NCBI GenBank assembly: GCA_017442315.1
Contig: JAFRZX010000030.1
Span: 62,001-126,000 of the forward strand
Source: Bacteroidales bacterium
GTDB taxonomy: Bacteria > Bacteroidota > Bacteroidia > Bacteroidales > UBA932
DNA length: 64,000 nucleotides
Direction: 5' to 3'
Within the stretch, counting starts at the first letter, position 1. Every line of letters begins with the position of its first letter. The position numbers and the translations under genes were made by a program. Positions 16,387 to 30,961 of the stretch are shown in pieces. Below the pieces are notes generated by a model that made no database searches, was not told the DNA's origin, and saw only the letters and a list, made by a program, of their open reading frames with translations.

Positions 16387-16411
16387 CCGAGCTCAAATCA
16401 TGTTGAAACTT

Positions 16412-19400
16412 ATGAAAATTATTCATTATTTTGTCTTTCTGGCAACATTGTTTGCCGCTGTTTCTTGCGGCAAGGAAGAACTGGAACCGCCGGTTGCTGA
16501 TGGAGTCATACCGGAGAAGATGGAGTATAATACCTATCTTACAGCAAGGATAAATACAGAGACCAAAGCTTCTGTAAGCGAGGATTATAAGAAGCTTTCG
16601 TGGACTGTAAATGATACCATTTCTGTATATACGTCAAAAGGACGTTTCGTGGATTTTATCTATGATGCAGAGGAATCTCCAGAAGAAGTACGTTTCAAAG
16701 CTAATCTGGACAATGGTGAGACCATAGGCAGATACGCAGTATATCCTGCGGGAAATCATAGGGTCTCCTCCGAGGGTGATGTATTTGTGAACCTGCCTCA
16801 GAAGTATGAGTGGGTTGAGGGCGAAGTTGAAGTGCCGATGCTGGCGGAAATATCTGATCCGTCTGAAACAGTGACATTCAGTCATGTAGGAGGTGTGTTC
16901 GCATTCGATGTCGCTGGTGTTCCAGCCGGTGCTACGTCTTTTGAGTTCAAGGCCTCACGTCTTGTTACCGGAGACTTTTCAGTTGCAGACGGAAAGATTG
17001 CGACTTTGGAGAACGAAGTGGCCAGCACAGTGACTTTCACCTTCGATGCTCTTGAACTGGTTGAGGATATGAAATTCTTTGTACCTGTTCCTACAGGATC
17101 GTATCCGGGCTTTACCATAACCATATATGGTGGAGAAAGCAGTCTCGCTACAAAGACTGCCAAAAGTACCAATGTGATAGAAAGGACAGCTCTGAAGAAA
17201 TTCTCCTTTGCAGCATCGGACATTATTTATGTGACTGTTGACGGTTCTGGTCAGAAAACTGGTGAATCATGGGAAAATGCGGCTACTCTCAATGGTGCAC
17301 TGGCCTCAGCCGGAAACGGCTCAGTAATAAGAATGGCTGGTGGAACTTATGTTCCGGATACCATCATCAGTGGCGCTGAGGAAGGTGCGTCCGATAATTT
17401 CAAGACCTTCCTTGTAAACAAGCATGTCACCATACAGGGAAGCTACAAGGCCGGTACTTCCCAGACGGACACATTGACTACACCTACAATCATTTCAGGA
17501 AAGATATCCGAGACTGTCAATGCATGGCATGCTATGACTGTGGCGGCCCCAGGTGACGGCAAGACAGTACTCAGAGGACTGACATTTACGGGAGGAAAGC
17601 CTAAAAAGGCTACGGCAGCAGCGGACTGTACGACTGTTACAACTGCTGACGGAGTGACTGTCCAGAATTATCGTGGCGGCGGACTCTATGTAGGATCTTC
17701 AGTTGATCTGAGATCATGTACGTTCACAGGTAACACGGCAGATAATCTGACCTATACAAGCGGTACTGTGGGTGTCGGCATGTATATCGCTGCCGGATCT
17801 GTGGCCAATGTAAGCAGGTCAATGTTCACCTCAAATACAGGAGGAGCTTGCGGAGGTGCCATCTATGTGCATGGTAATCTTAATATGACGGATTGTGTCT
17901 TCAGCCAGAACAAGGCAGCTCACAGCGGTGCCGTTCATAATGCAGGTAAGGTCTATGTAGACAGATGCCTGTTCCTGGAAAATGAAGCTACAAGCGGCTT
18001 TGCAGGAGCCATGAGGCAGCAGGGAAGCACATTTACTGTTGCAAACAGTACATTTAAAGGCAATAAGGCAAAGACACATGGAGGTGCTATACATAACAAC
18101 AGGAATACAATCACCTTGGACGGATGTATATTCAATGAGAATGCGGCAACCAAAGATGGAGGTGCAATAGCGAACTGGGGCGGAGGAACGGCAACGGTAA
18201 ATACATGTTCGTTCGTAGCTAATACGGCAGAATACGGAGGGGCTGTAACAAATATGGTGAATAGCGCTACTGACAAAAAGTCTTATCTGATCTTGAACAA
18301 ATGTTCTTTCATCGGAAATGCTGCAAGTGACGGTCAGGATGCTGTCAATGGAGGTGCTGTGATCAACAATGGCTGTATAACGGTCATTTCCGGTTGCTCG
18401 TTTGAAGGATTCTCTGCTGAAAGCGGTGGTGCAGTGGCAAACCTGTTGTCAATGACACTTGTTCCTGAACTGACCATAGACAAGGGATGCGTGTTCACGA
18501 AAAACGAAGCATCACTTGGAGGAGCTGTAGCCAATATTGCAGGAAATGCCGAAATCTCCGGCACAGATTTTCTGGAAAACAATGCCCTTCAGCATGGCGG
18601 CGCTGTTTATAATGCATACGGTGGCGGAACATCTGTGATGAGCATCAGGTCTTCCGAATTCATCTCCAATACTTCGGTAAAGAACGGAGGAGCCATCATG
18701 AACTGGTATGCTGAAGATGACCCTTCTGCATTGGCTCCGGAACTGACGATAAGCAATTGTGAATTCATTACGAATAAAGTAACAGAAAAGACAGACTATG
18801 AAAATCAGGGAGGAGCAATCGCTAACCAGTGTTCGATACTTACAGTTACGGGAACCACATTCCATAAGAACTATGCATTGCATTCCGGCGCCATATACAG
18901 CTATAACTGTTTGAAGAATACGTCAACTCTGTTAAGCGACAAGGTTGCCTATACTTATGTATATAACAGCTGTTTCGACTCAAATACAGTAGGAGGTACA
19001 GCTCAGGGGTCTCATTTCAGGTCTCACGGTAAGTCGAAGAATGTTATAGTCAACTCTACCTTTACAGGCGGTAACAGTACTACCGGGGGCTTGCGTTTGC
19101 GCACCGGAGCTACATGCTATCTGGTCAGCTGCACCTTTACTGATAATGGTTCCGGCCCTTACAACCAGTCATCTGTGATGAAGGTTTATAATACGGTCTC
19201 TTATGGCAATTCAGGCAATAAGTTGAATTATTATGCGAATCTGACTGACAGTGACGATTTGCTGTACTCATCTTTGATCGGTACGATGTCCATTAGTGGA
19301 GGCCGCGTTTCAACTGGCACGACATTGTATGATGCGGAAGGAAATGCTTCGGATATGACCATTTCAGGCAATCTTTTCGGAGCATACAGGGACGGAGTGT

Positions 19401-21160
19401 ATTCTGTTGAGGCTGAACCTGCCGTTTCCAAAGGAATGACCAATGCAGAGCTCGAAGCATTGGCTAACGTTATAAAGGCAGATATGCCTGATCTGGAAGT
19501 GAAGTACTTTACAAGGGACCAGAAGAACAGTCCTCGCTCGGAGTGCGAGAAAGTCATGGGAGCATATATCGGAGATGTCTACCTTGATCCGAACCGTGAC
19601 GGATACATCAACAATACAGAGATTGATGATGATCTGAATCTACGCGGACTCATAACTGATGGTTCGGGAAATCCTGTTGCAGGAGTCGCTGTTTCGGATG
19701 GTTATGATGTTGTGACAACAGACGTCAACGGAGTGTATCAGTTTGCTGCACATCCGGATGCCAGGTTGCTCAGCATATCTGTGCCGGCTGAGTATGAGAT
19801 CCCATACAAGGACAACAGACCGGCGTTCTGGGTATCCATCGATCCTACGGACTATGAGATAAGAACAGATTTCACCTTGAAGAGACGTACTTCACCAGCA
19901 GATGATTTCACAATCTTTTCACTCGCTGACACCCATGTCAAGACTGCCGAGCATTATTCCCGCTTTTCCGGTGAAACGATGGCGGATCTGGCCTCTACAG
20001 TGAATGCCGGCAACTACAGCAGCAATTCATTTGCAGTTATTCTGGGAGACATCATGTTTGACAACTATGAACAGGTGGAGAATGTAAAGGCCTCACTTGT
20101 GGATTCTCCAGTTCCAGTCTTCCCATGTTTCGGTAATCACGATTGTTCGTCCTCTGTCGGAACCACAGAACTGGATCTGATAAGCAAGTATCAGCAACAT
20201 TTCGGACCAGTGGACTATTCCTTCAATATAGGAAAGGCTCATGTAGTGTTTATGAAGAATATGATTTATGAGGGGAAAGAACCTTACGGTACTGAGGGTC
20301 ATGGTTATGCCCAAGGTATTCTTGACCATCAGCTTGAATGGTTGAGAAAGGATCTGGATGCGGTGCAGGACAAAGGAAACAAGCTTATCATAATGTGTGT
20401 CCATATACCTCTGCGTGGAACAGGAAATTCTTCAAAGAACTATAAGGCTGTAGTCAATGAAATGCTGAAGTTCAAGGAGGCTCATGTGCTTTCCGGTCAT
20501 CATCATGGAGTGTATAATCATATTCCTTCAGGAACTCTGACTGCAGGAGGCAAGAACTTTTATGACCATAATCAGGTGGCTGCAGCAGGAGCATGGTGGG
20601 GTAGTCATCTCAATCCGGACGGATCGCCGAATGGATATATGATCTATGATATCTCAGGAAATGCGGTTGAGGGCTATGCGTTCAAGGGTACCAATCAGGA
20701 TGCCGGGTATCAGATGCGTGTGTATAACGGCGGCAACAGTTACAGTGCACCTTTCCCTTGGTGGAATTATCATAACTGGACACAGACCTTCAAATGGTCC
20801 GACCTTGGCACAACCCTTTCTGGTAAATTTGTGGTCCATGTATTCAATGCAGATACCCGTGACTGGCAGGTCAATTTTGTACAGAACGGAGTTTCCACCC
20901 CTATGACAAGGACAACAGAAGACTGGTATGATGTCGCATCTTATGCGTTTGCCGCATACTATACCGATTGGTCTTCCGGAGGATCGGAACGATATAGTTC
21001 AAAGACTGCCAATACCAATTATTGGTACATAGATGCTCCTTCAGGTAATCCGGCATCTGAAAGGAACTGGTATGTTGAAGCTGTGCATACTGTGAACGGC
21101 AAGACCGTAAGGTATACATCAAGTACATTGCATTCCGGTTATACGGGTTTCGAGTATTAA
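16412..21160 (+). CDS. Giant surface lipoprotein: fimbrillin-like, Pmp-like beta-helix, calcineurin-type phosphoesterase
   Basis: Predicted surface-exposed phosphoesterase of 1582 aa. The start at 16412 gives a lipoprotein signal ending AAVSC, then GKEELE, an acidic stretch like Bacteroidetes surface-export signals. Residues about 55-270 resemble fimbrillin/Mfa-like domains. About 275-940 form a right-handed beta-helix with repeated GGA(I/V) and FxxN motifs, as in chlamydial Pmp proteins. A canonical EF-hand loop follows at 1059-1070 (D-P-N-R-D-G-Y-I-N-N-T-E). From about 1078 there is a MetallophosN-like domain and a calcineurin-type catalytic domain with ADTH, GDIMFD, GNHD (about 1241), CVHIP and GHHHG (about 1363), then a C-terminal MetallophosC-like domain. 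All metal ligands look present. Its two halves are homologous to separate genes at 49627-52362 and 36068-37747. The substrate is unknown; phosphomonoester or phosphodiester hydrolysis at the cell surface is inferred. Confidence 0.9.
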   Translation: MKIIHYFVFLATLFAAVSCGKEELEPPVADGVIPEKMEYNTYLTARINTETKASVSEDYKKLSWTVNDTISVYTSKGRFVDFIYDAEESPEEVRFKANLDNGETIGRYAVYPAGNHRVSSEGDVFVNLPQKYEWVEGEVEVPMLAEISDPSETVTFSHVGGVFAFDVAGVPAGATSFEFKASRLVTGDFSVADGKIATLENEVASTVTFTFDALELVEDMKFFVPVPTGSYPGFTITIYGGESSLATKTAKSTNVIERTALKKFSFAASDIIYVTVDGSGQKTGESWENAATLNGALASAGNGSVIRMAGGTYVPDTIISGAEEGASDNFKTFLVNKHVTIQGSYKAGTSQTDTLTTPTIISGKISETVNAWHAMTVAAPGDGKTVLRGLTFTGGKPKKATAAADCTTVTTADGVTVQNYRGGGLYVGSSVDLRSCTFTGNTADNLTYTSGTVGVGMYIAAGSVANVSRSMFTSNTGGACGGAIYVHGNLNMTDCVFSQNKAAHSGAVHNAGKVYVDRCLFLENEATSGFAGAMRQQGSTFTVANSTFKGNKAKTHGGAIHNNRNTITLDGCIFNENAATKDGGAIANWGGGTATVNTCSFVANTAEYGGAVTNMVNSATDKKSYLILNKCSFIGNAASDGQDAVNGGAVINNGCITVISGCSFEGFSAESGGAVANLLSMTLVPELTIDKGCVFTKNEASLGGAVANIAGNAEISGTDFLENNALQHGGAVYNAYGGGTSVMSIRSSEFISNTSVKNGGAIMNWYAEDDPSALAPELTISNCEFITNKVTEKTDYENQGGAIANQCSILTVTGTTFHKNYALHSGAIYSYNCLKNTSTLLSDKVAYTYVYNSCFDSNTVGGTAQGSHFRSHGKSKNVIVNSTFTGGNSTTGGLRLRTGATCYLVSCTFTDNGSGPYNQSSVMKVYNTVSYGNSGNKLNYYANLTDSDDLLYSSLIGTMSISGGRVSTGTTLYDAEGNASDMTISGNLFGAYRDGVYSVEAEPAVSKGMTNAELEALANVIKADMPDLEVKYFTRDQKNSPRSECEKVMGAYIGDVYLDPNRDGYINNTEIDDDLNLRGLITDGSGNPVAGVAVSDGYDVVTTDVNGVYQFAAHPDARLLSISVPAEYEIPYKDNRPAFWVSIDPTDYEIRTDFTLKRRTSPADDFTIFSLADTHVKTAEHYSRFSGETMADLASTVNAGNYSSNSFAVILGDIMFDNYEQVENVKASLVDSPVPVFPCFGNHDCSSSVGTTELDLISKYQQHFGPVDYSFNIGKAHVVFMKNMIYEGKEPYGTEGHGYAQGILDHQLEWLRKDLDAVQDKGNKLIIMCVHIPLRGTGNSSKNYKAVVNEMLKFKEAHVLSGHHHGVYNHIPSGTLTAGGKNFYDHNQVAAAGAWWGSHLNPDGSPNGYMIYDISGNAVEGYAFKGTNQDAGYQMRVYNGGNSYSAPFPWWNYHNWTQTFKWSDLGTTLSGKFVVHVFNADTRDWQVNFVQNGVSTPMTRTTEDWYDVASYAFAAYYTDWSSGGSERYSSKTANTNYWYIDAPSGNPASERNWYVEAVHTVNGKTVRYTSSTLHSGYTGFEY

Positions 21161-21310: not shown

Positions 21311-21407
21311 TCTCAGGATTCTTTAAAACCTCTACAATTACTCTCTCATACAAAAAAATAACCTGCGCTTTTCTATGAGCGTATGTGATTTATTTGTAAT
21401 GTGTTAT

Positions 21408-21442
21408 GGCAGCCGAAAAGGAATATCACCTTTTCGGCTGCC
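21408..21442. terminator. Strong hairpin, likely terminator between operons
   Basis: A perfect 13-bp inverted repeat (GGCAGCCGAAAAG / CTTTTCGGCTGCC) around a 9-nt loop lies between the small peptide gene and the DUF47 promoter. No T-run follows on the plus strand, so factor-independent termination is not certain. The rest of 21311-21508 shows nothing else besides the promoter at 21478. Confidence 0.6.
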
Positions 21443-21477
21443 TATGTGTCCGTACCTCTACAAGTCAAAAAAAATAT

Positions 21478-21485
21478 TATATTTG
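21478..21485 (+). promoter_or_regulatory. Promoter -7 element of the DUF47 operon
   Basis: TATATTTG matches TAnnTTTG exactly and lies 23 nt before the DUF47 start at 21509, downstream of a hairpin. The -33 element is unclear. Confidence 0.55.
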
Positions 21486-21508
21486 TTTCTGTAACAAAAT
21501 GGAAAATC

Positions 21509-22156
21509 ATGTTCGGACTGAAAAAGGCAAACAAGCTGATTGAAGATATTGACCGTTATTTCGATCTGATGTCTCAGGCAGTTCTTGCTTTCAAGGATGG
21601 TGTCAGAAATTATCTTTACAAAGATACCAGTGCATTCAACGGTGATCTTGTCCGCATGTCGGCTCTTGACAGCGAGGCAAGTGTACTGAGAAGAGAAATT
21701 GAGAACGCATTATATGCTTCGACAGCTCTTGTGCGTTCCAGAGGAGATGTCATGCGTCTTCTTGAAAAGACAAGAAATATAACGGATATACTTAACGAAA
21801 GCCTTTTCCAGTTTGAGATTGAGACCCCATACATTCCATCGGAACTGAACACAGAATTCATGAAGCTGACAGAATTCTCGACATTGGCTGTCGAATCTGT
21901 CATACCGGCTGCCAAGGCTTATTTTGATGCACCGGAAACGGTTCAGGATAAGGTGAGCCGAGCTTATTTTTATGAAAGAGAGGCTGTCAAGTATTCTCAG
22001 TCCATCAAGCGTACGGTCTTCCACAATATGTCGGAACTTAAGCTCAGCGAGAAATTCCACCTGCGCTATTTTGCGCTTCATATTGAGAATCTGGCCAAGG
22101 GAGCAGAGAATGTCGCGGACCAGCTGGCGGTAATGGCTATAAGGAGAATAATGTAG
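21509..22156 (+). CDS. DUF47-family (PhoU-like) phosphate transport regulator
   Basis: Cytosolic all-helical protein of 215 aa from the ATG at 21509 (MFGLKKANKLIEDIDRYFDL). An upstream in-frame ATG at 21401 lies before the promoter and hairpin and is not used. The helix-rich PhoU-like pattern is visible throughout: ALDSEASVLRREIENALYAS, LLEKTRNITDILNESLFQFEIE and a C-terminal HIENLAKGAENVADQLAV. DUF47 proteins usually accompany PiT-type phosphate transporters and modulate them. Here the next gene, 5 nt downstream, encodes a membrane protein with an HTH instead, and an OprP-like porin follows. Confidence 0.85.
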   Translation: MFGLKKANKLIEDIDRYFDLMSQAVLAFKDGVRNYLYKDTSAFNGDLVRMSALDSEASVLRREIENALYASTALVRSRGDVMRLLEKTRNITDILNESLFQFEIETPYIPSELNTEFMKLTEFSTLAVESVIPAAKAYFDAPETVQDKVSRAYFYEREAVKYSQSIKRTVFHNMSELKLSEKFHLRYFALHIENLAKGAENVADQLAVMAIRRIM

Positions 22157-22161
22157 ACTAT

Positions 22162-23799
22162 ATGGATCTGCTGGCCCTCATATCATTCCTTTCTGTTGCT
22201 TCTCTCTGGTTCTTTTCTACAGAGTATGGCAATCTTTCGGGAGTATTCGGGCCGACCTGTGTCGTGAATCGGACTCGGTTCAATCTTATTGTCGCTGCTG
22301 TCTTCCTGGCAGCATTGTGTGGAGAATATCTTCTTTTTAATGGTGAGGCAGGGTCGACGGCTGATGGTCAGTTGCGGATTGCCTTTGTGCCGTTGATACT
22401 GATGCTGCTTTCGTCTCTGCTGATTCTTGGCATCCTGAAGCTGTTCAGGGTCAGAGGTTCTTTCTGTTATGCATTCACCGGATCTTTGTATGCATTCCTG
22501 ATTGCAGCATCACCTGTAGGATGCGAGTGGAGATATGTAATTTCATTTGTTGCGGCGCCTTTCATTGTCTTTCTGTTTGCCCTGTGTATAAGAGCATTCC
22601 TGAAAGCGCTTGTCTCCGGCAGGAATATCCATATGGTCAAGCTGTCCTGGGCTATGCGTCATGTGGTCATTGTCGGCATTGTCCTTACTGCAGCGGCCCT
22701 CGGACTGAACTGGGGAGGTTTTCTGTTGGATGCCGGCAATATGCTTATTGCAGCAGACAATGTGAATGTTCTTCTGATTGTCGTAGCCTTGTCAGGCACT
22801 TCCATGATTTTCCATATGTGCAGGTGTTCCGGTAAGGATGATGAGCCTACCGGCATGTTCGCCGACTTTTCCATCTATGCTGTGGTGTCCGTCGGTCTGT
22901 CCGTAGCCTTGACATTGATATTCTTTTCTTTTGAGGAAGTTACTTCCATCGTAGGACTGTATCCTGTACCTCTGTCCGTTTCCGCTATGGTGATGGCAGC
23001 CGTTGCAGGTGTGGAGACTGTGCAGAGGACGCGAATCGTGGATGATGAGGATTATGTCAAGGAAGCTGTGGCGATGACAGGTACACCTGTGGGCGCTTTT
23101 CTGTTGACATCGGCATCTCTTTATATAGCATCTCTTGACGGAGGTGACAATGTGGCGGACTTTACAATTATGGCATTTGCCGTTGCCGGAGTGCTGTGTG
23201 TCTTCTTCATGGGATATGTCAGAAGACAGCATATATATAAGGAAGGGGTTGACCGTCTGCTGTATGTCCAGCAGCAGCAGATATATGAACATAGCAGGGC
23301 CTTGAATGATATGGAGATGAAGGTCATACTTTCGGAGAACCGGGCTTTGCATGATGCTGTGGAGCTGAAGAAGCAGGAGGTTACCAATGTGGCTCTCAGC
23401 ATCAAGGAGCAGAAGGAATACCTAGAGTCACTCAATGAGATTGTGAGAAAGATGGTCAAGACCGAGGATGCCGTGGAAAGAGCAGAACTGCTGGAAAAAC
23501 TGGACATGTCGTTGAAGCAGAGATTGTCTTATGACAGTGAGGTTGACTCGCAGTATTTCTATGCTCAGGCAGAATCTCTTCATGAGGATTTCCATGCAAA
23601 GCTTTCGGAAAGATTTCCGGACCTTACTCCTCAGGAGACAAGGCTGGCCACCATGCTCAGACTCGGATTTTCTTCTAAATATATTTCGACGCTGATGAAT
23701 GTAACACCTAAGAGCATAGAGATAAGCAGATATCGCCTCCGGCAGAAACTCCGTATGTCCAAAGGGGATAATCTTGTGAATTTCCTTAAATCAATATAA
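22162..23799 (+). CDS. Polytopic membrane protein with C-terminal LuxR-type HTH (PiT-slot sensor)
   Basis: 545 aa. Roughly residues 1-355 hold about ten hydrophobic segments. The first part (EYGNLSGVFGPTCVVNRTRF then VAAVFLAALCGE) is reminiscent of a PiT transporter helix-loop-helix, but the usual ND...N signature is not present. Residues about 365-455 form a coiled coil (DMEMKVILSENRALHDAVEL). Residues about 487-545 are a LuxR/GerE-type helix-turn-helix (TPQETRLATMLRLGFSSKYI, then MNVTPKSIEISRYRLRQKL), a form common in Bacteroidetes sensor regulators. It follows DUF47 by 5 nt and precedes an OprP/O-like porin, so a membrane-bound phosphate-responsive transcription factor is a plausible reading. 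The HTH is solid; a PiT origin is inference from position and weak similarity. Confidence 0.75.
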   Translation: MDLLALISFLSVASLWFFSTEYGNLSGVFGPTCVVNRTRFNLIVAAVFLAALCGEYLLFNGEAGSTADGQLRIAFVPLILMLLSSLLILGILKLFRVRGSFCYAFTGSLYAFLIAASPVGCEWRYVISFVAAPFIVFLFALCIRAFLKALVSGRNIHMVKLSWAMRHVVIVGIVLTAAALGLNWGGFLLDAGNMLIAADNVNVLLIVVALSGTSMIFHMCRCSGKDDEPTGMFADFSIYAVVSVGLSVALTLIFFSFEEVTSIVGLYPVPLSVSAMVMAAVAGVETVQRTRIVDDEDYVKEAVAMTGTPVGAFLLTSASLYIASLDGGDNVADFTIMAFAVAGVLCVFFMGYVRRQHIYKEGVDRLLYVQQQQIYEHSRALNDMEMKVILSENRALHDAVELKKQEVTNVALSIKEQKEYLESLNEIVRKMVKTEDAVERAELLEKLDMSLKQRLSYDSEVDSQYFYAQAESLHEDFHAKLSERFPDLTPQETRLATMLRLGFSSKYISTLMNVTPKSIEISRYRLRQKLRMSKGDNLVNFLKSI

Positions 23800-23830: not shown

Positions 23831-25276
23831 ATGAAAAAGGTATTATTAGTTTCGCTTTTGGCGCTCGTGTCGTCAATCGCTGCAGTCGCCCAGCAGGAAG
23901 AAGCTGTGCAGACTGATGTGAACCAGTATGGCCAGACGGTGGAATCTGTACCGGTACAGGCTCAGGTCCAGGATGGAATCCTTGTGTTCCAGAACAAGAA
24001 GGAGAACTACAAGATGTGGTTCGATGTCCGCGTACAGGCTGATGCGGCAGTATTCTTCGGTGCACCGGATTTCTGTGCAAAACAGCTTGACGGAAAGGAT
24101 AACAGCAGTCATATCGGTAACGGTATGAATATCCGTCGTGCCCGTTTCGCTGTGAAGGCTCAGCTTGACAAAAACTGGTATGGTGAACTTGACACTGACT
24201 GGACCAGCGGTACACCTGAGATCAAGGATGCTTATGTGGCATTTACAGGCGTAAAGGGTCTGGAAATCAAAGTCGGTAACTTCAAGGAGAACTTCTCTAT
24301 CCAGAGAAACACCACTTCACGCTATCTTATGTTCATGGAGCGTGCGATGGCAACTTATCTTGCTCCGTCACGTCATCTTGGTGTGAATGCAAGATATTCA
24401 TACAACTGGCTATGGGCATCTGCCGGTGTATTCGGACCGGAACTTGAAGGTGAGGAAGCTCATACCGCTTTCCAGGACGGTAATAAGGACTATGGTTACA
24501 ATGAGGGACTTTCCTACACCGGAAAGCTCGTCTTCCGTCCTCTTTACAAGCAGGAAAATGCTTCTCTCCATATAGGTGGAGCCTTTTCTTACCGTGAACC
24601 TAAACTTTCCAGCACAGACGGTTATTTCGTAGGCCGCTACAGCAGCCGCAACTCTACCAGCATCAACCGCAAGAAGTATCTTGATACAGATGATGTAAAG
24701 GGTCTTGACCATGAGATCGCATGGACTGCTGAAATAGCAGGACATTGGAAGCAGCTCCGTTGGGAGGCAGCATACATAGCTCGTGGAATGTATCTCGATC
24801 CTACAAAGAACACAGCATCCTATGCATCACAGACTCAGTGGGCTGAAGGTTGGTATGTTCAGGCTAGCTGGCTGCTCTTCGGAGGTACTCAGAACTATGA
24901 CGCTTCCGGTGCGAAATATACACGTACCACTTCAGAGCACAAATGGGGTAACCTTGAGATCGCTTTCCGTTATGAGTATGCTGATTTCAACACCGGCAAG
25001 CTCTTCTCAAAGAATCTAAATGATGTAGGTATCTTCGGTGGTAGCGGTGAAGCTTATACCGTGGGTCTCAACTACTATCCTAACAAGAATGTGAAGATCG
25101 TACTCAACTGGCAGTATAACAACAATGACCGTTATGCAAATGCAAAGGGTAACTCTTATGTAGGTTATGACCTTAACGGAAAACCTACCAAGAACCCTAA
25201 GAAGGTTGTTGCTGTGAACGGTAAGGCTGGTGTGGACTACCAGATGCTTGCACTCCGTTTCCAGGTTGCATTCTAA
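23831..25276 (+). CDS. Phosphate-selective porin, OprP/OprO family
   Basis: Outer-membrane beta-barrel of 481 aa with a cleavable signal peptide (MKKVLLVSLLALVSSIAAVAQ) and a C-terminal aromatic strand ending LRFQVAF. The IRRARFAVKAQLDKNWYGEL segment, the GNFKENFSIQR segment and ERAMATYLAPSRHLGVNARY are typical of porin O/P family proteins. Codon use is rich in C-ending codons, suggesting high expression. It sits between a putative phosphate sensor and a lamin-tail lipoprotein. The substrate may be phosphate, pyrophosphate or polyphosphate; the selectivity-determining lysines cannot be assigned from sequence alone. Confidence 0.85.
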   Translation: MKKVLLVSLLALVSSIAAVAQQEEAVQTDVNQYGQTVESVPVQAQVQDGILVFQNKKENYKMWFDVRVQADAAVFFGAPDFCAKQLDGKDNSSHIGNGMNIRRARFAVKAQLDKNWYGELDTDWTSGTPEIKDAYVAFTGVKGLEIKVGNFKENFSIQRNTTSRYLMFMERAMATYLAPSRHLGVNARYSYNWLWASAGVFGPELEGEEAHTAFQDGNKDYGYNEGLSYTGKLVFRPLYKQENASLHIGGAFSYREPKLSSTDGYFVGRYSSRNSTSINRKKYLDTDDVKGLDHEIAWTAEIAGHWKQLRWEAAYIARGMYLDPTKNTASYASQTQWAEGWYVQASWLLFGGTQNYDASGAKYTRTTSEHKWGNLEIAFRYEYADFNTGKLFSKNLNDVGIFGGSGEAYTVGLNYYPNKNVKIVLNWQYNNNDRYANAKGNSYVGYDLNGKPTKNPKKVVAVNGKAGVDYQMLALRFQVAF

Positions 25277-25353: not shown

Positions 25354-26406
25354 ATGAAAAAGATATTTTTAGCATTGGCAGCACTTGCGACTATGGCTGC
25401 CGTATCATGCGTAAAGGATGAGCAGTATCCTGGTGCAACAGAACCGGAACCGGAACCAGAAATTGTCTATGACTATTCGGGACTGGTGCTTAACGAACTT
25501 TGCGGACTAGGTGAGGACAATGAAAAATTCATAGAACTTTTCAACAATGGTTCGGAGGATGTGGATCTCGCAGGTGTGACGATCAACAAGGATGAGGAAC
25601 TTGCATGGACTGGTAAGAAAGGACAGGTTATAAAGGCCGGAGAGGTTTTTGCCATTGTTGGTGCAAAAGGTACTACAGAGGATGGCTTCAGTACAGGATT
25701 CTCGGCAAAGAAGACTGTTATCGTTGAACTTTTCGATCCTGCAGGCAAGAAGCTCGACACCTTCCAGCGTGGAGAGAAAGGTGAAGGATGGGGCGGTGGT
25801 CTTGACCTTGTAGAAGGATCATGGAGCCGTATTCCTGACGGAACAGGTAAATTCCTCGTGGCAGAGGCAACTCCAGGTGCACTGAACAGCACTACTGGTA
25901 CAGAAGACCCTACCCTGGTCGGCAATGGAGAAATCGTTTTGCCTGAAGCGCCGCTCACTGTAGTTCTGAATGAACTTTATGGTGACGGTGAAGACGAGGA
26001 AAAGTTCTTTGAACTCTACAACCCTTCAGATAAGGAGGTGAGCCTTGCAGGTTACACCATTAATAAGGATGAGGAACTTTGCTGGACAGGTGCAGACGAC
26101 CTTAAGATTGCTGCAAAGGGATTCTATCTGATTCTTGGAGCAAAAGGTACTACTGAGGGCGGATTCAGCTCAGGATTCTCAGCAAAGAAGACTGTAATTG
26201 TTGAACTGTTTGATGCAAATGGAAACAAACTCGATACCTTCCAGCGTGGCGATAAAGGTGACGGTTGGGGTGCTGGTCTCGATCTTTGGGCCGGTTCTTG
26301 GAGCCGCATTCCTGACGGAACAGGTGATTTCATGATGACAGAGTCGGTTACCGGAGGCGCAGCCAATAATGGCGAAGGTGCTGTAGTTGATCCTAACGTA
26401 AAATAA
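25354..26406 (+). CDS. Surface lipoprotein with two tandem lamin-tail (LTD) domains
   Basis: 350 aa. A lipoprotein signal ends AAVSC and is followed by VKDEQ, an acidic surface-export-like start. Two LTD (intermediate-filament tail-like, immunoglobulin fold) copies cover about residues 45-170 and 205-335. Each carries VLNEL, EKFFELY or EKFIELF, AGxTINKDEEL, FSAKKTVIVELFD and KLDTFQRG, so the gene arose by internal duplication. LTD lipoproteins in Bacteroidetes often occur beside CotH or VTC/CYTH-type genes; here two CYTH-type genes follow. Likely an extracellular binding or scaffold protein; ligand unknown. Confidence 0.85.
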   Translation: MKKIFLALAALATMAAVSCVKDEQYPGATEPEPEPEIVYDYSGLVLNELCGLGEDNEKFIELFNNGSEDVDLAGVTINKDEELAWTGKKGQVIKAGEVFAIVGAKGTTEDGFSTGFSAKKTVIVELFDPAGKKLDTFQRGEKGEGWGGGLDLVEGSWSRIPDGTGKFLVAEATPGALNSTTGTEDPTLVGNGEIVLPEAPLTVVLNELYGDGEDEEKFFELYNPSDKEVSLAGYTINKDEELCWTGADDLKIAAKGFYLILGAKGTTEGGFSSGFSAKKTVIVELFDANGNKLDTFQRGDKGDGWGAGLDLWAGSWSRIPDGTGDFMMTESVTGGAANNGEGAVVDPNVK

Positions 26407-26419
26407 AAGGAGATATATC

Positions 26420-27058
26420 ATGGCAGAATTGAAAATCGGCGAGATTTCAAAGCCACGCTTTGAGTTCCGCTCTTTCGGGCAGTGTTTCTGCGAGGCACAT
26501 AAGAGAATGGCTCGTCTTTCCGTTCCTGTACCTGAAAAGGTATGGGAACGCGAAAGCGACGAGATCTACATCATCTCACGCAAGAACGACATCAACAACA
26601 CCAAGATCCGTAACGGAAAGATGGATATCAAGACTTATGTCCAGACAGTTGACGGACTTGAGCAGTGGAACCCTCTGATGAAGGGCGAGTTCCCTATCTC
26701 CCGCACTGTGCTTGAGAACGAGGTCTTCCCTGCATTCATGGTGGAGATGCCTGCTCTTGACAAGGATGAGTACACATATGACGAGTTCATCGCAATGGTG
26801 AAGGCTAATCCTGACCTGGCGGCTGTACGCGTCCACAAGCAGCGTTTCGGCTATATGGTGAACAACACTATCTGCGAGGTGGGCAATGTGCTCATCAATG
26901 GCGCAAAGGTCGTTACCATCAACTCTGAATCTACTGAAATCGAGGATATCAAGAAGACCATCGCTGACTGCTGTCTCGAAGGCGTTGAGAATATCAACTA
27001 TCTTCAGGCTATCAAGCGTGTGATCGGCATGTCTGACAAACCACTTGCAAACGAATAG
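26420..27058 (+). CDS. CYTH-superfamily-like protein, divergent
   Basis: 212 aa, cytosolic, no signal peptide. The N-terminal PRFEFRSFGQCF resembles the first strand of CYTH (triphosphate tunnel) proteins but lacks the ExExK signature. Further CYTH-like strands are DEIYIISRKND, TKIRNGKMDIKTYVQ and the GEFPISRTVLE region. A strong ribosome-binding sequence (AAAAGGAG, GGAG at 26409-26412) precedes the ATG by 7 nt, unusual for this phylum. The next gene, 4 nt downstream, is a canonical CYTH protein. Codons are strongly biased to C endings, as in highly expressed genes. It may bind or process nucleotide, thiamine or inorganic triphosphates; activity is unproven. Confidence 0.6.
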   Translation: MAELKIGEISKPRFEFRSFGQCFCEAHKRMARLSVPVPEKVWERESDEIYIISRKNDINNTKIRNGKMDIKTYVQTVDGLEQWNPLMKGEFPISRTVLENEVFPAFMVEMPALDKDEYTYDEFIAMVKANPDLAAVRVHKQRFGYMVNNTICEVGNVLINGAKVVTINSESTEIEDIKKTIADCCLEGVENINYLQAIKRVIGMSDKPLANE

Positions 27059-27062
27059 TATC

Positions 27063-27536
27063 ATGGCACAGGAAATCGAAAGAAAATTCTTGGTTGCAGG
27101 CGACTTCAAGCCGTTTGCAAAGAAGGCTACCCGTATCACTCAGGGTTACCTCAGCTCAGTTCCTGAACGCACCGTACGCGTACGCGTAAAGGGCGAGAAG
27201 GGATTCATCACCATCAAGGGTATCGGATCCGAGAGCGGTGCAAGCCGTTTCGAGTGGGAAAAGGAGATTCCTGTAGCAGAGGTTCAGGAACTTCTTAAGA
27301 TCTGCGAGCCAGGTGTAATCGACAAGACACGCTATCTTGTGGAGGCTGGTGAGCACACCTACGAAGTGGATGAGTTCTACGGAGATAATGAAGGTCTGAC
27401 AGTTGCTGAAGTTGAACTTTCTTCAGAGGATGAGGCTTTTGTGAAGCCGGAATGGCTCGGTGAGGAGGTTACAGGAGATGTGAAGTATTACAACTCCATG
27501 CTTATGAAGAACCCATATAAGAATTGGGTAAAATAA
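27063..27536 (+). CDS. CYTH-domain triphosphatase-like protein
   Basis: 157 aa with the defining ExExK motif at the N-terminus (EIERKFLV), then GYLSSVPERTVRVRVKGEKG, FEWEKEIP, DKTRYLVE and a C-terminal AEVELSSEDEAF, all positions that line the CYTH tunnel. The family includes inorganic triphosphatases, class IV adenylate cyclase and thiamine triphosphatase. Short bacterial members like this one generally hydrolyse inorganic triphosphate. Start chosen at 27063 (MAQEIERKF), 4 nt after the previous stop. Pairing with a divergent CYTH protein suggests a joint function in phosphate-chain metabolism. Confidence 0.88.
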   Translation: MAQEIERKFLVAGDFKPFAKKATRITQGYLSSVPERTVRVRVKGEKGFITIKGIGSESGASRFEWEKEIPVAEVQELLKICEPGVIDKTRYLVEAGEHTYEVDEFYGDNEGLTVAEVELSSEDEAFVKPEWLGEEVTGDVKYYNSMLMKNPYKNWVK

Positions 27537-27711: not shown

Positions 27712-29322
27712 ATGACCGACAAGAATACTGAACTGGAACAGGAGCAGGTCTTTGACCCTCTGGACATGAACAACTATAAGGTGGAAAAACTTCCGAAGAT
27801 GGAAAAGTCCGGCTTCGAGAAATGGATGGCACGTCTGGGAGGACCTATTGCCGCTTTGGTGTTCATACTTATTTATTGGGTGATAGATATTCCGCTGTTT
27901 GATGATCTGGATTTTTCCGGGCTTTCAAGCAAGGCACAGGCTAGACTGGGAGTCATCGGTGAGGCTGCCTTCATCCGTGCATGCTATGCGATGCTGGCCA
28001 TTTTCTGCGCTTCCATAGTACTGTGGATAACTGAGGCAGTCCAGAGCTATCTGACTTCTCTCATGGTCATTCTGGCCATTGTCCTTTGTGGTGTGACAAC
28101 TCAGAAAGAGGCATTTGCCCAGCTTGGCCATCCTGTAATGTGGCTGAATATCCTTTCTTTTGTCCTTGCCAGCATGCTTGTCAAGACAAAGGCAGCGAAG
28201 AGGTTTGCGCTCTGGTTCGTACTTAAGTTCGGCAAAAGTTCCGCAGGTATTTTCTTCAGTTTTCTTGTCATAAATGTTGTTCTGTCGATGTTCATTTCCG
28301 CCACAACTGTAAAAGCCACCATCCTTTTGCCGATATTCATGGTGGTCGCTGCCATCTTCGGTGCCAGTCAGGGTGAACGGAACAACTTCGGACGCAATCT
28401 TGTGCTGCAGAACCTGTTTCAGGTCAATATCGGTGCCAGTGCGTTCATGACGGGATCAGGTGCTAATCTTCTTGCCGTATCTCTTATGATGGGAGCATAC
28501 GGGTCATTGTCATTCGGCTATACAGATTGGCTTGCAGCAGGATTCCCTCTTGCCATGATTCTTCTGCTTCTGGGATGGTTCATTGGCGTGAAAGTCATCT
28601 TCCCGATGAAGCCTGAGGAAAGAAAACCTCAGATTGAAGGAGGCATGGACCGTCTGCGTCAGGAGCTTGATGCAATGGGAAAGATGACTGTGGATGAATA
28701 CAAGTCGATAGCCATTTTCGTAGGGGTGCTCCTTATGTGGGTAACAGGCGAATGGCATGGAATAGATGAAACAACGGTGGCATTCATCGGAGCCATCATT
28801 GCGCTTATGCCAGGTATCGGTGTCGTGAAGTGGAACGATGTGGATATACCTTGGCACCTGATGCTCTTCTCAGCTGGAGCATATACTCTCGGTTCCGGTC
28901 TCAATGCTACGGACCTGCCGTCGATCATAGTGAATGCCGGAATGGATTCACTCGGCATTACAGGTGATACACCTTTCATTGTGCTGTATCTCCTTTTTAC
29001 CGGTCTGATGCTTTTCAGCGGCCTTCTCTTCCAGTCAAAGACGATGAGGGCCCTGATATTTATTCCTATAGCCATTGGAGTGGAACAGCAGTTCGGCCTT
29101 CCGGCGCTCAGTCTTTCCTTCCCGGTGGCCCTTCTTATCGAACACGTATATGTGCTTCCGTTCAACAGCAAGCCGGCAGCGCTCTTGTATACGACAAATC
29201 ACTACAGCTGGAGCGATACCTTCAGATTCGGTATCACAATGATGTTTATAGCATGGGTTATGATAGTGATATGGGGTGAAACCGTGTTGCACTGGCTAGG
29301 ATATACTCCCGGACTATTCTAG
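27712..29322 (+). CDS. DASS (SLC13)-family sodium/anion symporter, divergent
   Basis: Inner-membrane anion transporter of 536 aa with a cytosolic N-terminal extension of about 40 residues and around twelve hydrophobic segments. Family features include WITEAVQSYLTSLMVILAIV, the IGTGxN-like region (here MTGSGANLLAVSLM) and a C-terminal NHYSWSDTFRFG segment. The two hairpin SNT signatures that bind sodium and substrate in characterised members are altered: the first reads FISATTVKATILLP (about residue 195), the second FQSKTMRALIFIP (about residue 440). The usual dicarboxylate specificity should therefore not be assumed. Arrays of 33-bp repeats lie on both sides. In this context phosphate or another inorganic anion is conceivable. 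Confidence 0.85.
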   Translation: MTDKNTELEQEQVFDPLDMNNYKVEKLPKMEKSGFEKWMARLGGPIAALVFILIYWVIDIPLFDDLDFSGLSSKAQARLGVIGEAAFIRACYAMLAIFCASIVLWITEAVQSYLTSLMVILAIVLCGVTTQKEAFAQLGHPVMWLNILSFVLASMLVKTKAAKRFALWFVLKFGKSSAGIFFSFLVINVVLSMFISATTVKATILLPIFMVVAAIFGASQGERNNFGRNLVLQNLFQVNIGASAFMTGSGANLLAVSLMMGAYGSLSFGYTDWLAAGFPLAMILLLLGWFIGVKVIFPMKPEERKPQIEGGMDRLRQELDAMGKMTVDEYKSIAIFVGVLLMWVTGEWHGIDETTVAFIGAIIALMPGIGVVKWNDVDIPWHLMLFSAGAYTLGSGLNATDLPSIIVNAGMDSLGITGDTPFIVLYLLFTGLMLFSGLLFQSKTMRALIFIPIAIGVEQQFGLPALSLSFPVALLIEHVYVLPFNSKPAALLYTTNHYSWSDTFRFGITMMFIAWVMIVIWGETVLHWLGYTPGLF

Positions 29323-29500: not shown

Positions 29501-30961
29501 ATGATATCGATACAGGCAAAGAAACATGATAATTTTTCGGTTGAATTCAAATTCGGATTCAACTGCAGGGAAGATGGTGTTACTGATGATTTCTCAGTCA
29601 ATGCCTGGATGTTCGTACCCAACAGTCTGGATATAAATCCGGAAAACTACGGAAAAAAGCAGTTCTATAGAGATATAAAGTCTAATGTACGTCTGATAAC
29701 TCCGGTTTATCTTCTGAAAGATATTTCTAAAGACTCATCTCTTCCGATGCAGTCCCTCCGGCAGGCTTTGGAAAATGTGGCCTCCAATCCTTCTCCAGAA
29801 GATATAGATGCGTATGAGTATCATCTGAAGATGTTTGCCGCAATATTCAAGAGCGCACTACGGGACCAGGCGTCTCATCTGAGGTCGGCGCGCTCATTGG
29901 AGACAGCAGGATATCTTGTTGATGATTTTGTGTCCGGAGCGAGGCTTGTCCTTCTTAAATTCAGGTCTCTTTACAGGATAATCGACATCCCTACTGTATC
30001 AGAAAAGACAAGAAGTCTGTTCCGTCTGTGTGATGAATTCATGAGTCATGTAGTTGAGGTCAGAACAATAAGGATAATCCGCAAGATTGATGCATCATTC
30101 AATTCGGAGGTCTATTCAGGGATACGCGAAGAATTCATGAGTCTTATACGGGATGAACGTCAGTATAAGCATGCAATGGGATATGGGGTCGTGAACAATG
30201 ACTCCCGTCATGACCGTCAGCTTGTGTATCATCATGGAATGCTCAAGAAATTCATAGAGAGCGAGTTATATATCCGGCTGGATAAAAAGAAGGATGGGGT
30301 TGCGGTGGAGCAGATATATTACAGTATAGCTGCCGGAATCGCCATGATCTTTGCAACCGCTGTGGCCTGGCACACGCAGGTAAGGTATGGCAACATCACA
30401 TGGCCTCTTTTCATTGTTCTTGTGGTAAGCTATATGCTTAAGGACAGGATAAAGGACCTGCTCAGATATTATTTCGCGCATAAGCTTGGAAATAAATATT
30501 ATGACAAGAAAGCTACGGTCACTATAGGCAAGAGCCGGGTAGGAGTGATAAAGGAAGGGTTCGACTTTATTTCGGATTCAAAAATCCCGTCACAGGTAAA
30601 AGCCTTGCGCGAAAAGGCATCTTCAGTTGAGGACGAGTCCCGTATTTTTGAAGAAAAGATCATGCTTTACAGAAAGCATGTGACTATTGATGATGCTGCA
30701 TTGGCGGCTAATGATGACTATCCGATGCGTGGCATAAATGAGATCATGCGTCTTCATCTGACAAGGTTCACCCACAAGATGGATAATCCTGAGGTGCCGA
30801 TAGATTCATTTGACGACAGCGGGAAACTGTTCTCCATCAAGGTCCAGAAACTGTATTATGTCAATATCGTATTCCAGCTTCAGCATGATTCTGAAGTGGA
30901 GTACCATCATTTCCGTATAACCATGACCCGTAATGGTGTGCAGGAAGTGGAGCATATCTGA
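29501..30961 (+). CDS. Unrecognised protein with two central membrane helices
   Basis: 486 aa; I do not recognise the family. There is no signal peptide. Residues 1-265 are polar and charged, with a helical Asp/Arg-rich middle. Two adjacent hydrophobic segments lie at about 273-292 (IYYSIAAGIAMIFATAVAWH) and 299-313 (ITWPLFIVLVVSYML), followed by a basic stretch and a second soluble domain. Both soluble domains would face the cytosol. The start at 29501 lies 13 nt after the repeat hairpin. Same strand as the DASS gene and followed 79 nt later by another membrane protein, so it may belong to the same operon. Confidence 0.75.
   Translation: MISIQAKKHDNFSVEFKFGFNCREDGVTDDFSVNAWMFVPNSLDINPENYGKKQFYRDIKSNVRLITPVYLLKDISKDSSLPMQSLRQALENVASNPSPEDIDAYEYHLKMFAAIFKSALRDQASHLRSARSLETAGYLVDDFVSGARLVLLKFRSLYRIIDIPTVSEKTRSLFRLCDEFMSHVVEVRTIRIIRKIDASFNSEVYSGIREEFMSLIRDERQYKHAMGYGVVNNDSRHDRQLVYHHGMLKKFIESELYIRLDKKKDGVAVEQIYYSIAAGIAMIFATAVAWHTQVRYGNITWPLFIVLVVSYMLKDRIKDLLRYYFAHKLGNKYYDKKATVTIGKSRVGVIKEGFDFISDSKIPSQVKALREKASSVEDESRIFEEKIMLYRKHVTIDDAALAANDDYPMRGINEIMRLHLTRFTHKMDNPEVPIDSFDDSGKLFSIKVQKLYYVNIVFQLQHDSEVEYHHFRITMTRNGVQEVEHI

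Follow-up and report, generated by a model that had tools for sequence, protein, structure and literature searches.

A PiT-derived membrane protein with a LuxR-type helix-turn-helix in a Bacteroidales operon, a probable regulator of its own oxyanion uptake

In the PhoU-Pst-PhoR system a transporter and a PhoU-like protein together control transcription. Permeases of the PiT/SLC20 family (PF01384; TmPiT, 6l85) have a DUF47 partner, whose role beside these carriers is, to our knowledge, poorly understood. A two-hybrid assay in Staphylococcus aureus did not find contact between PitA and PitR, an analogous pair, and its authors caution on negatives (PMC11705898). Two types of described proteins carry their output on the membrane protein. 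The CbrA-type transceptors consist of an SLC5 transporter joined to a histidine kinase (PMC13022988). The membrane LuxR regulators DadR, HcdR and CadR of the actinobacterial Coriobacteriia are described, in the sections devoted to them, as proteins with 10-12 transmembrane segments that regulate adjacent genes locally (PMC9734109).

We analysed a 64,000-nt stretch of a Bacteroidales genome (the window), in which a DUF47 gene is followed by P0001, a gene for a polytopic membrane protein ending in a LuxR-type helix-turn-helix (HTH). P0001 resembles the PiT/SLC20 permeases in a homologous core recognised by profile, in the DUF47 gene directly upstream and in its operon slot, and differs from them in having lost most signatures and gained an extra helix, a coiled coil and a LuxR HTH. 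With CbrA it shares a transporter domain and a signalling output in one chain, but the output of CbrA, as outlined there, is a kinase rather than a DNA-binding domain and its transporter belongs to another family (PMC13022988). DadR, HcdR and CadR likewise combine a polytopic membrane domain with a C-terminal LuxR HTH; the sections describing them mention no PiT origin or DUF47 partner, and by that description they are set apart from P0001 (PMC9734109). Unlike in PhoU-Pst-PhoR, the HTH of the P0001 family sits on the transporter-derived protein itself. No phosphate-transporter/LuxR protein was found among the papers listed from the open-licence literature. Our analyses favour the interpretation that P0001 arose from a PiT-family transporter and now serves as a membrane-bound one-component regulator of the oxyanion-uptake operon to which it belongs, probably with DUF47 as co-sensor.

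The window protein and its operon

The features of the locus are given in Table 1. P0001 starts 5 nt after the end of the DUF47 frame (22156), and ORF coordinates and Pfam matches confirmed the predicted arrangement of a DUF47 gene upstream, a Porin_O_P gene downstream and a LuxR-type HTH at the C-terminus. The GTG at 21401 is merely the first start in the DUF47 frame, and relatives of this protein are mostly 215-222 aa long.

Table 1. Features of the P0001 locus (positions are those of the window)
Feature	Position	Strand	Basis or remark
DUF47 (PhoU-like) gene	21401..22156	+	PF01865 9.3e-7, 28.9 bits vs cut-off 24.4; likely start ATG 21509
CTCTACA box, candidate operator	21456..21462	+	53 nt before likely DUF47 start; box in 69/75 loci
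TATATTTG, Bacteroidota-type -7 promoter element (TAnnTTTG)	21478..21485	+	
P0001	22162..23799	+	545-aa ORF, ATG start
PiT-derived membrane domain, P0001 residues 1-357	22162..23232	+	PiT core up to about residue 325, followed by a single additional membrane helix
Coiled coil and LuxR-type HTH, P0001 residues 358-545	23233..23799	+	Pfam, AlphaFold2
Porin_O_P outer-membrane porin	23831..25276	+	PF07396 8e-35
Lamin-tail-domain (LTD) protein, probably a lipoprotein by its N-terminus	25354..26406	+	PF00932 2.2e-27
UNK212, conserved	26420..27058	+	No Pfam or NCBIfam match
CYTH-domain protein	27045..27536	+	PF01928 2.9e-15; likely start 27063
DASS sodium:anion symporter	27712..29322	+	PF00939 1.4e-52; TIGR00785 212.7 bits vs cut-off 198.6
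UNK486, accessory gene in one operon version	29501..30961	+	19/80 flank-limited loci

The only Pfam matches of P0001 at E up to 1 were GerE (LuxR), located at the C-terminus with E 7e-5 and 22.8 bits against a cut-off of 23.5 (0.7 bit short), and DUF7902. GerE was matched by all 20 family members scanned at E up to 1 (best 4.3e-9). In the AlphaFold2 model of P0001 (pLDDT 88.2, pTM 0.69) the membrane part has 11 long helices, and helix 11 begins at residue 329 and continues into a long coil followed by the HTH. The expected C-terminal coiled coil and LuxR-type HTH are seen in the model and in the GerE matches of the family. Hydropathy analysis of 72 aligned relatives (alignment A3, P0001 and 71 of the 80 loci, L091, L103, L110, L137, L141, L142, L145, L151 and L159 being omitted) also gave 11 hydrophobic segments, the last at residues 336-349 and followed by a K/R-rich stretch, so that the membrane part is polytopic as proposed, with 11 rather than roughly ten helices. 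The MntP model matched P0001 at 1.9e-4 with 21.2 bits against a cut-off of 214. NF053779 (BT3442_fam region) matched the coil and HTH at E 0.0016 with 17.2 bits against a cut-off of 940; the coiled-coil LuxR regulators of Bacteroidota are therefore weakly similar in this part, while the input domain of P0001 is PiT-derived. In one MAG (L103:6001-7620) an in-frame stop lies between the membrane part and the coil of the regulator gene.

Conservation of the neighbourhood was assessed in 80 loci, the best 80 of 99 matches, from named MAGs labelled Bacteroidales or Bacteroidia (many ruminant), Bacteroides sp., Tidjanibacter, Alistipes, Rikenellaceae and, once, Burkholderiaceae. The Burkholderiaceae-labelled contig (L110) carries a piece of this Bacteroidales gene and is probably mis-binned. 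DUF47 lies directly before and the porin directly after the regulator at 75 of these best 80 of 99, and the other five are cut off by a contig end or, in one case or more, by an assembly gap of N. Where the contig leaves room, LTD follows in 65/68, UNK212 in 60/60, CYTH in 58/58 and DASS in 58/58 of the same set. Same-genus regions showed the porin after the regulator in 20/20 and DUF47 before it in 19/20, the remaining gene starting 75 nt from the contig end. All 14 long same-genus regions with a homologue continue in one of two ways, to MgtC, which H+-PPase follows in some, or to UNK486, which UNK743 follows in some, and the fifteenth carries an unrelated LuxR protein; MgtC occurs in 30 of the 80 flank-limited loci (best 80 of 99). 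The architecture therefore recurs with DUF47 in Bacteroidota, as the original prediction had asked to be surveyed, and homologues adjoin both neighbours wherever the contig allows. The DUF47-regulator-porin arrangement is not due to chance.

Several further observations were made around the operon. The nucleotides just upstream (16400-21160) encode a protein of 1586 aa that combines Chlamydia-PMP-type repeats with a C-terminal metallophosphatase (MetallophosN/C, Metallophos) and is not among the neighbour families common to many relatives. UNK212 is 88-99% identical in same-genus matches and is also present in operons outside the class; its identification as a second CYTH fold found no support (hhalign 0.2%). 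A membrane H+-pyrophosphatase lies in or beside the operon at L165, L166, L174, L191, L247 and L248, which suggests the use of pyrophosphate or polyphosphate. Genome G026 has two copies of the operon start on different contigs (L034 and L035).

Ancestry of the membrane part and the permease slot

Searched alone, P0001 matched neither a Pfam model of PiT nor a PiT chain of the PDB. PF01384 was matched by 8 of the 20 family members at E up to 1 (best 1.8e-11), and a six-frame search detected it in five homologues at E up to 1e-3, one of them with 44 summed bits against a cut-off of 33.7. Profile comparison of the family membrane part with 25 PiTs of relatives gave 98.1% (E 8e-14, 292 columns), and hhalign against 11 syntenic PiTs gave 99.0-99.3% with E values of 2.5e-18 and 1.2e-20, the latter at 99.3% over 311 columns; control profiles from the same loci (DASS, MgtC and H+-PPase) reached 0.1-0.3%. 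When the family profile was compared with 177,635 PDB sequences, the sole match at E up to 1 was TmPiT, 6l85 (6.1e-7), and the first-repeat region of the profile matched both TmPiT repeats. Descent from PiT (PF01384) is seen at the level of the family, collinear with the PiT profiles and TmPiT; structural kinship is taken here from sequence profiles, and the link is made by the family, P0001 itself matching none. The N-terminal segment read earlier as a degenerate PiT loop was borne out by the alignment of EYGNLSGVFG with the first ND loop, ANELTNVFGTA. These comparisons support a PiT-derived membrane part in the P0001 family.

The 7TMR-DISM fold, raised in the original prediction as an unrelated fold that the membrane part might match, was absent from the Pfam matches of P0001 and among the families listed (25 of 44) for the 20 members, and an ordinary 7TMR-DISM LuxR protein was rejected on this basis. 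That a usual TPR- or 7TMR-type LuxR regulator landed beside DUF47 by chance is almost certainly not the explanation: coil and HTH are indeed common to many regulators of the order, in frames of about 300-1000 aa, but the PiT homology of the membrane part and the fixed synteny contradict a chance landing.

Genuine PiT permeases occupy the same slot elsewhere. UNK212, used as an operon marker, was present in 29 of 101 relatives, and G075, from another family, carries DUF47, a real PiT, porin and LTD in this order. A search of the phylum with the G075 PiT (296 genomes, 46 matches) retrieved ten close relatives, 47-55% identical and all outside the class, with DUF47 directly before in 10/10 and the porin after in 9/10; UNK212, CYTH and DASS lie just upstream in 8/10, and a ninth has a DASS frame running to the contig end. 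The PiT slot is therefore real and spread over the phylum, and the lineage of the window holds a different protein there. Together with PF01384 on relatives, the collinear profiles and 6l85, this agrees with the proposal of a PiT-derived or PiT-replacing regulator in the PiT slot.

At L238 a divergent NtrC-type response regulator and an sCache histidine kinase adjoin the PiT operon (Pfam). A similar divergent two-component-like pair was seen by eye beside several other outside-class PiT operons (L238-L246), as if the LuxR tail had taken over its job. The window genome also has another PiT-family protein of 762 aa with a long C-terminal extension (L001:1378-3666), beside an apparent OmpR-type response regulator gene.

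The permeases in the slot bear on the ligand. The CysP sulfate permease model was matched by all 11 syntenic PiTs (best 1.7e-25; L188 with 75 bits, far under the cut-off of 400) and the PitA model by just 6 of the 11 (best 1.9e-5), and the operon contains a DASS symporter, a family that includes sulfate carriers; the same architecture could accordingly read sulfate or another oxyanion instead of phosphate. We consider this unlikely. A canonical DUF47-paired PiT also matches CysP (7e-18), so the model is not selective, and in seven regions with other short PiTs of the order, of which L205 was tested and gave 203.8 bits to CysP, neither DUF47 nor porin is a neighbour. DUF47, Porin_O_P, CYTH, whose fold includes tripolyphosphatases, and the H+-PPase of some loci point to phosphate or condensed phosphate, and phosphate is the likely ligand of the regulator.

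Intact PiT-LuxR proteins, loss of transport signatures and the DUF47 link

An order-wide profile search (295 genomes, 33 matches, 20 regions examined) revealed that the LuxR tail is also carried by intact permeases. Thirteen loci (INTERMEDIATES; L293-L304 and L312) in other families of the order each encode a single protein of 577-624 aa, in which a PiT with kept signatures is followed by a linker, an additional helix, a coil and a LuxR HTH; L296 departs most from the PiT signatures. Two of these proteins were scanned with Pfam and matched PHO4 at 3.3e-64 and 1e-56 and GerE, just under the cut-off, at 1e-4 and 6e-4. DUF47 precedes them in 13/13 and the porin follows in 11/13, L298 and L312 having less than 650 bases of contig left. 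Six further regions (L305-L310) have PiT and DUF47 without LuxR, and the porin is next in none of the six. L311, which comes from another genus of the window's family, has a degenerate protein like that of the window. The PiT-only proteins of L309 and L310 (411 and 455 aa) have a terminal linker and hydrophobic stretch resembling those of the PiT-LuxR proteins but no HTH, which by eye looks like loss of a LuxR tail.

Transport-site residues were compared in 17 PiT, 13 intact PiT-LuxR and 73 degenerate proteins, in G075 PiT numbering unless stated otherwise; counts of replacements are lower bounds from the five commonest letters per site. The signatures ND..N and (S/T)(S/T)(H/Q) of both repeats are kept in the 17 PiTs and nearly throughout in the 13 intact proteins, while they are largely lost in the 73 degenerate ones. 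N19, S96, T97, Q99, N183, N186, S286 and H/Q289 are fixed or nearly so in PiT and intact PiT-LuxR, and position 98 is S or T in all but one of them. At least 69 of the 73 degenerate proteins have a different residue at each of T97, Q99 and N186, at least 63 at H/Q289 and at least 53 at S98, and about half or fewer keep N19 (15/73), N183 (29/73), S96 (36/73) and S286 (38/73). Retained residues are G26 (63/73), P132 (66), H156 (68), N182 (73), P284 (69), G297 (71) and P323 (71); the first ND motif has an acidic residue, D or E, at its second place in 71/73. The carrier site of the degenerate clade is thus largely dismantled, with the fold and a few site residues held, and on these alignments a working transporter in the window's clade is unlikely.

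The first tree showed the PiT-LuxR proteins as one clade whose sister group was not resolved. In the second tree (14 of the 73 degenerate, 16 of the 17 PiT, 13 intact and 8 outgroup rows, long branches flagged) the degenerate rows formed one clade (100/100), and intact PiT-LuxR and PiT-only proteins were mixed, with mostly unresolved branching, so that this tree does not fix how often the LuxR tail was gained or lost.

DUF47 was also found joined to the HTH. The same operon starts in G043 with a 322-aa frame that runs from DUF47 (27.9 bits, cut-off 24.4) straight into GerE (28.4 bits, cut-off 23.5) without a membrane part, and this stretch is free of N. The G569 case is a 278-aa frame, truncated by the start of the contig, which comprises the DUF47 end, two hydrophobic segments, coil and HTH, and is followed by porin, LTD, UNK212, CYTH and DASS. 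These are the two DUF47-HTH cases among the matches listed (250 genus genomes, 79 with any match), and as two independent records they make an assembly artefact unlikely. L141 (711 aa) was rejected as a physical DUF47-PiT-LuxR fusion because its frame crosses an assembly gap of N. The operon is kept from the porin onward in G057, G039 and G014 (completeness 94, 94 and 70%), where DUF47 and regulator are both missing; the pair is therefore not essential to the operon.

Such fusions speak for a reading in which DUF47 is the only sensor and the degenerate PiT domain a mere anchor or docking platform that no longer binds an ion. G043 dispenses with the membrane part, G569 has two hydrophobic segments between DUF47 and the coil, the regulators of G411 and G030 are shortened to 414 and 439 aa, and branch lengths indicate that the membrane domain evolves much faster than in PiTs. 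We nevertheless judge this rather unlikely, since N183 (N182 of the G075 PiT) is present in 73/73 degenerate proteins, an acidic residue at 21 in 71/73, H157 in 68, P270 in 69, G283 in 71 and P309 in 71 (P0001 numbering), and near-fixed residues suggest a kept site or fold as against free decay.

The transceptor architecture, in which a single chain combines an intact transporter with a signalling output, is present in the 13 loci and absent in the window's degenerate clade. The relatives whose transporter part is intact suggest that transporters became membrane gene switches step by step. Tentatively, the intact PiT-LuxR proteins may be true single-chain transceptors, combining oxyanion transport with DNA binding from the membrane; the window's clade may then have given up transport and become a dedicated sensor, the last step being G569 and G043, with DUF47-HTH and PiT reduced or gone.

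The CTCTACA box and the proposed mechanism

Of 75 window-type loci, the window included, 69 have the sequence CTCTACA in the 200 bp before DUF47, 58 of them with at least two same-direction copies. No other 7-mer is as frequent there, the top count in 50 shuffles being 17/75, and the density of CTCTACA is 11.5 per kb upstream against 0.40 over whole loci. It is also the commonest 7-mer upstream of the intact PiT-LuxR operons, which were found separately, in 7/13 (shuffle mean 0.22; 0/1000 as high), the other 6/13 lacking an exact copy. Of the six window-type loci that lack it within 200 bp, L095 and L096 have an extra first gene and carry the boxes at its start instead, one L096 copy lying inside the longest frame called. 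Two copies are found near -250 in L111 and none in L107; the close kin L113 and L150 have one each near -224, which could be chance. L039, L311 and L051, the last with only 105 bp upstream, have the regulator without CTCTACA.

No forward copy was detected upstream in 17 comparison regions, which include three pair-less operons, seven syntenic-PiT operons, G043, G030, G414, G411 and G075; G079 has one reverse copy. The PiT-only operons, a small sample, also lacked it (0/6). A box together with TAnnTTTG, which we take to be the Bacteroidota -7 promoter motif, occurs at two sites in the window genome, one of them here, and the reversed control gave none, which points to a local regulator. The second site (C67:5303-5345), at the start of a gene that is ftsX-like by eye, may be chance. 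A tandem-box scan of 61 relatives gave 59 matches against 80 for the reversed-pattern control (39 in one genome) and was rejected as noise, and only operon-centred counts were therefore used.

CTCTACA might instead belong to a different regulator, for example PhoB, with the PiT-LuxR protein acting elsewhere. LuxR/FixJ dimers usually use inverted repeats, and an 11-bp direct repeat resembling a Pho box is seen in some loci. We regard this as quite improbable, because the box tracks the LuxR domain (0/6 PiT-only, 0/3 pair-less and 0/7 syntenic-PiT operons examined), is absent with EERHR-type recognition helices in 4/4 testable cases (G043, G030, G414 and G411), lies at the start of the extra first gene in L095 and L096, and with a promoter is found only twice in the window genome.

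Under the one-component regulator model that we favour, the PiT fold is retained with most Asn, Ser, Thr and Gln residues of the transport signatures gone, and the one added helix would give the coiled coil and LuxR HTH a cytoplasmic position. The PhoU-like DUF47 and the PiT-derived domain, presumably in contact, would jointly read oxyanion status, probably that of phosphate or condensed phosphate, and an HTH dimer would act, as activator or repressor, at the CTCTACA boxes before its own operon of DUF47, regulator, porin, LTD, UNK212, CYTH and DASS.

The living forms offer a series from transporter to sensor, which leads from the plain PiT through PiTs with a LuxR tail, first intact and then degenerate, to DUF47-HTH fusions and finally to the loss of both. 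The series places DUF47 in direct line with transcription, and it provides a small testable system of one protein, one partner, one candidate box and one operon. If the intact forms indeed transport, a solute carrier covalently tied to a DNA-binding domain would link uptake to gene control by a very short route.
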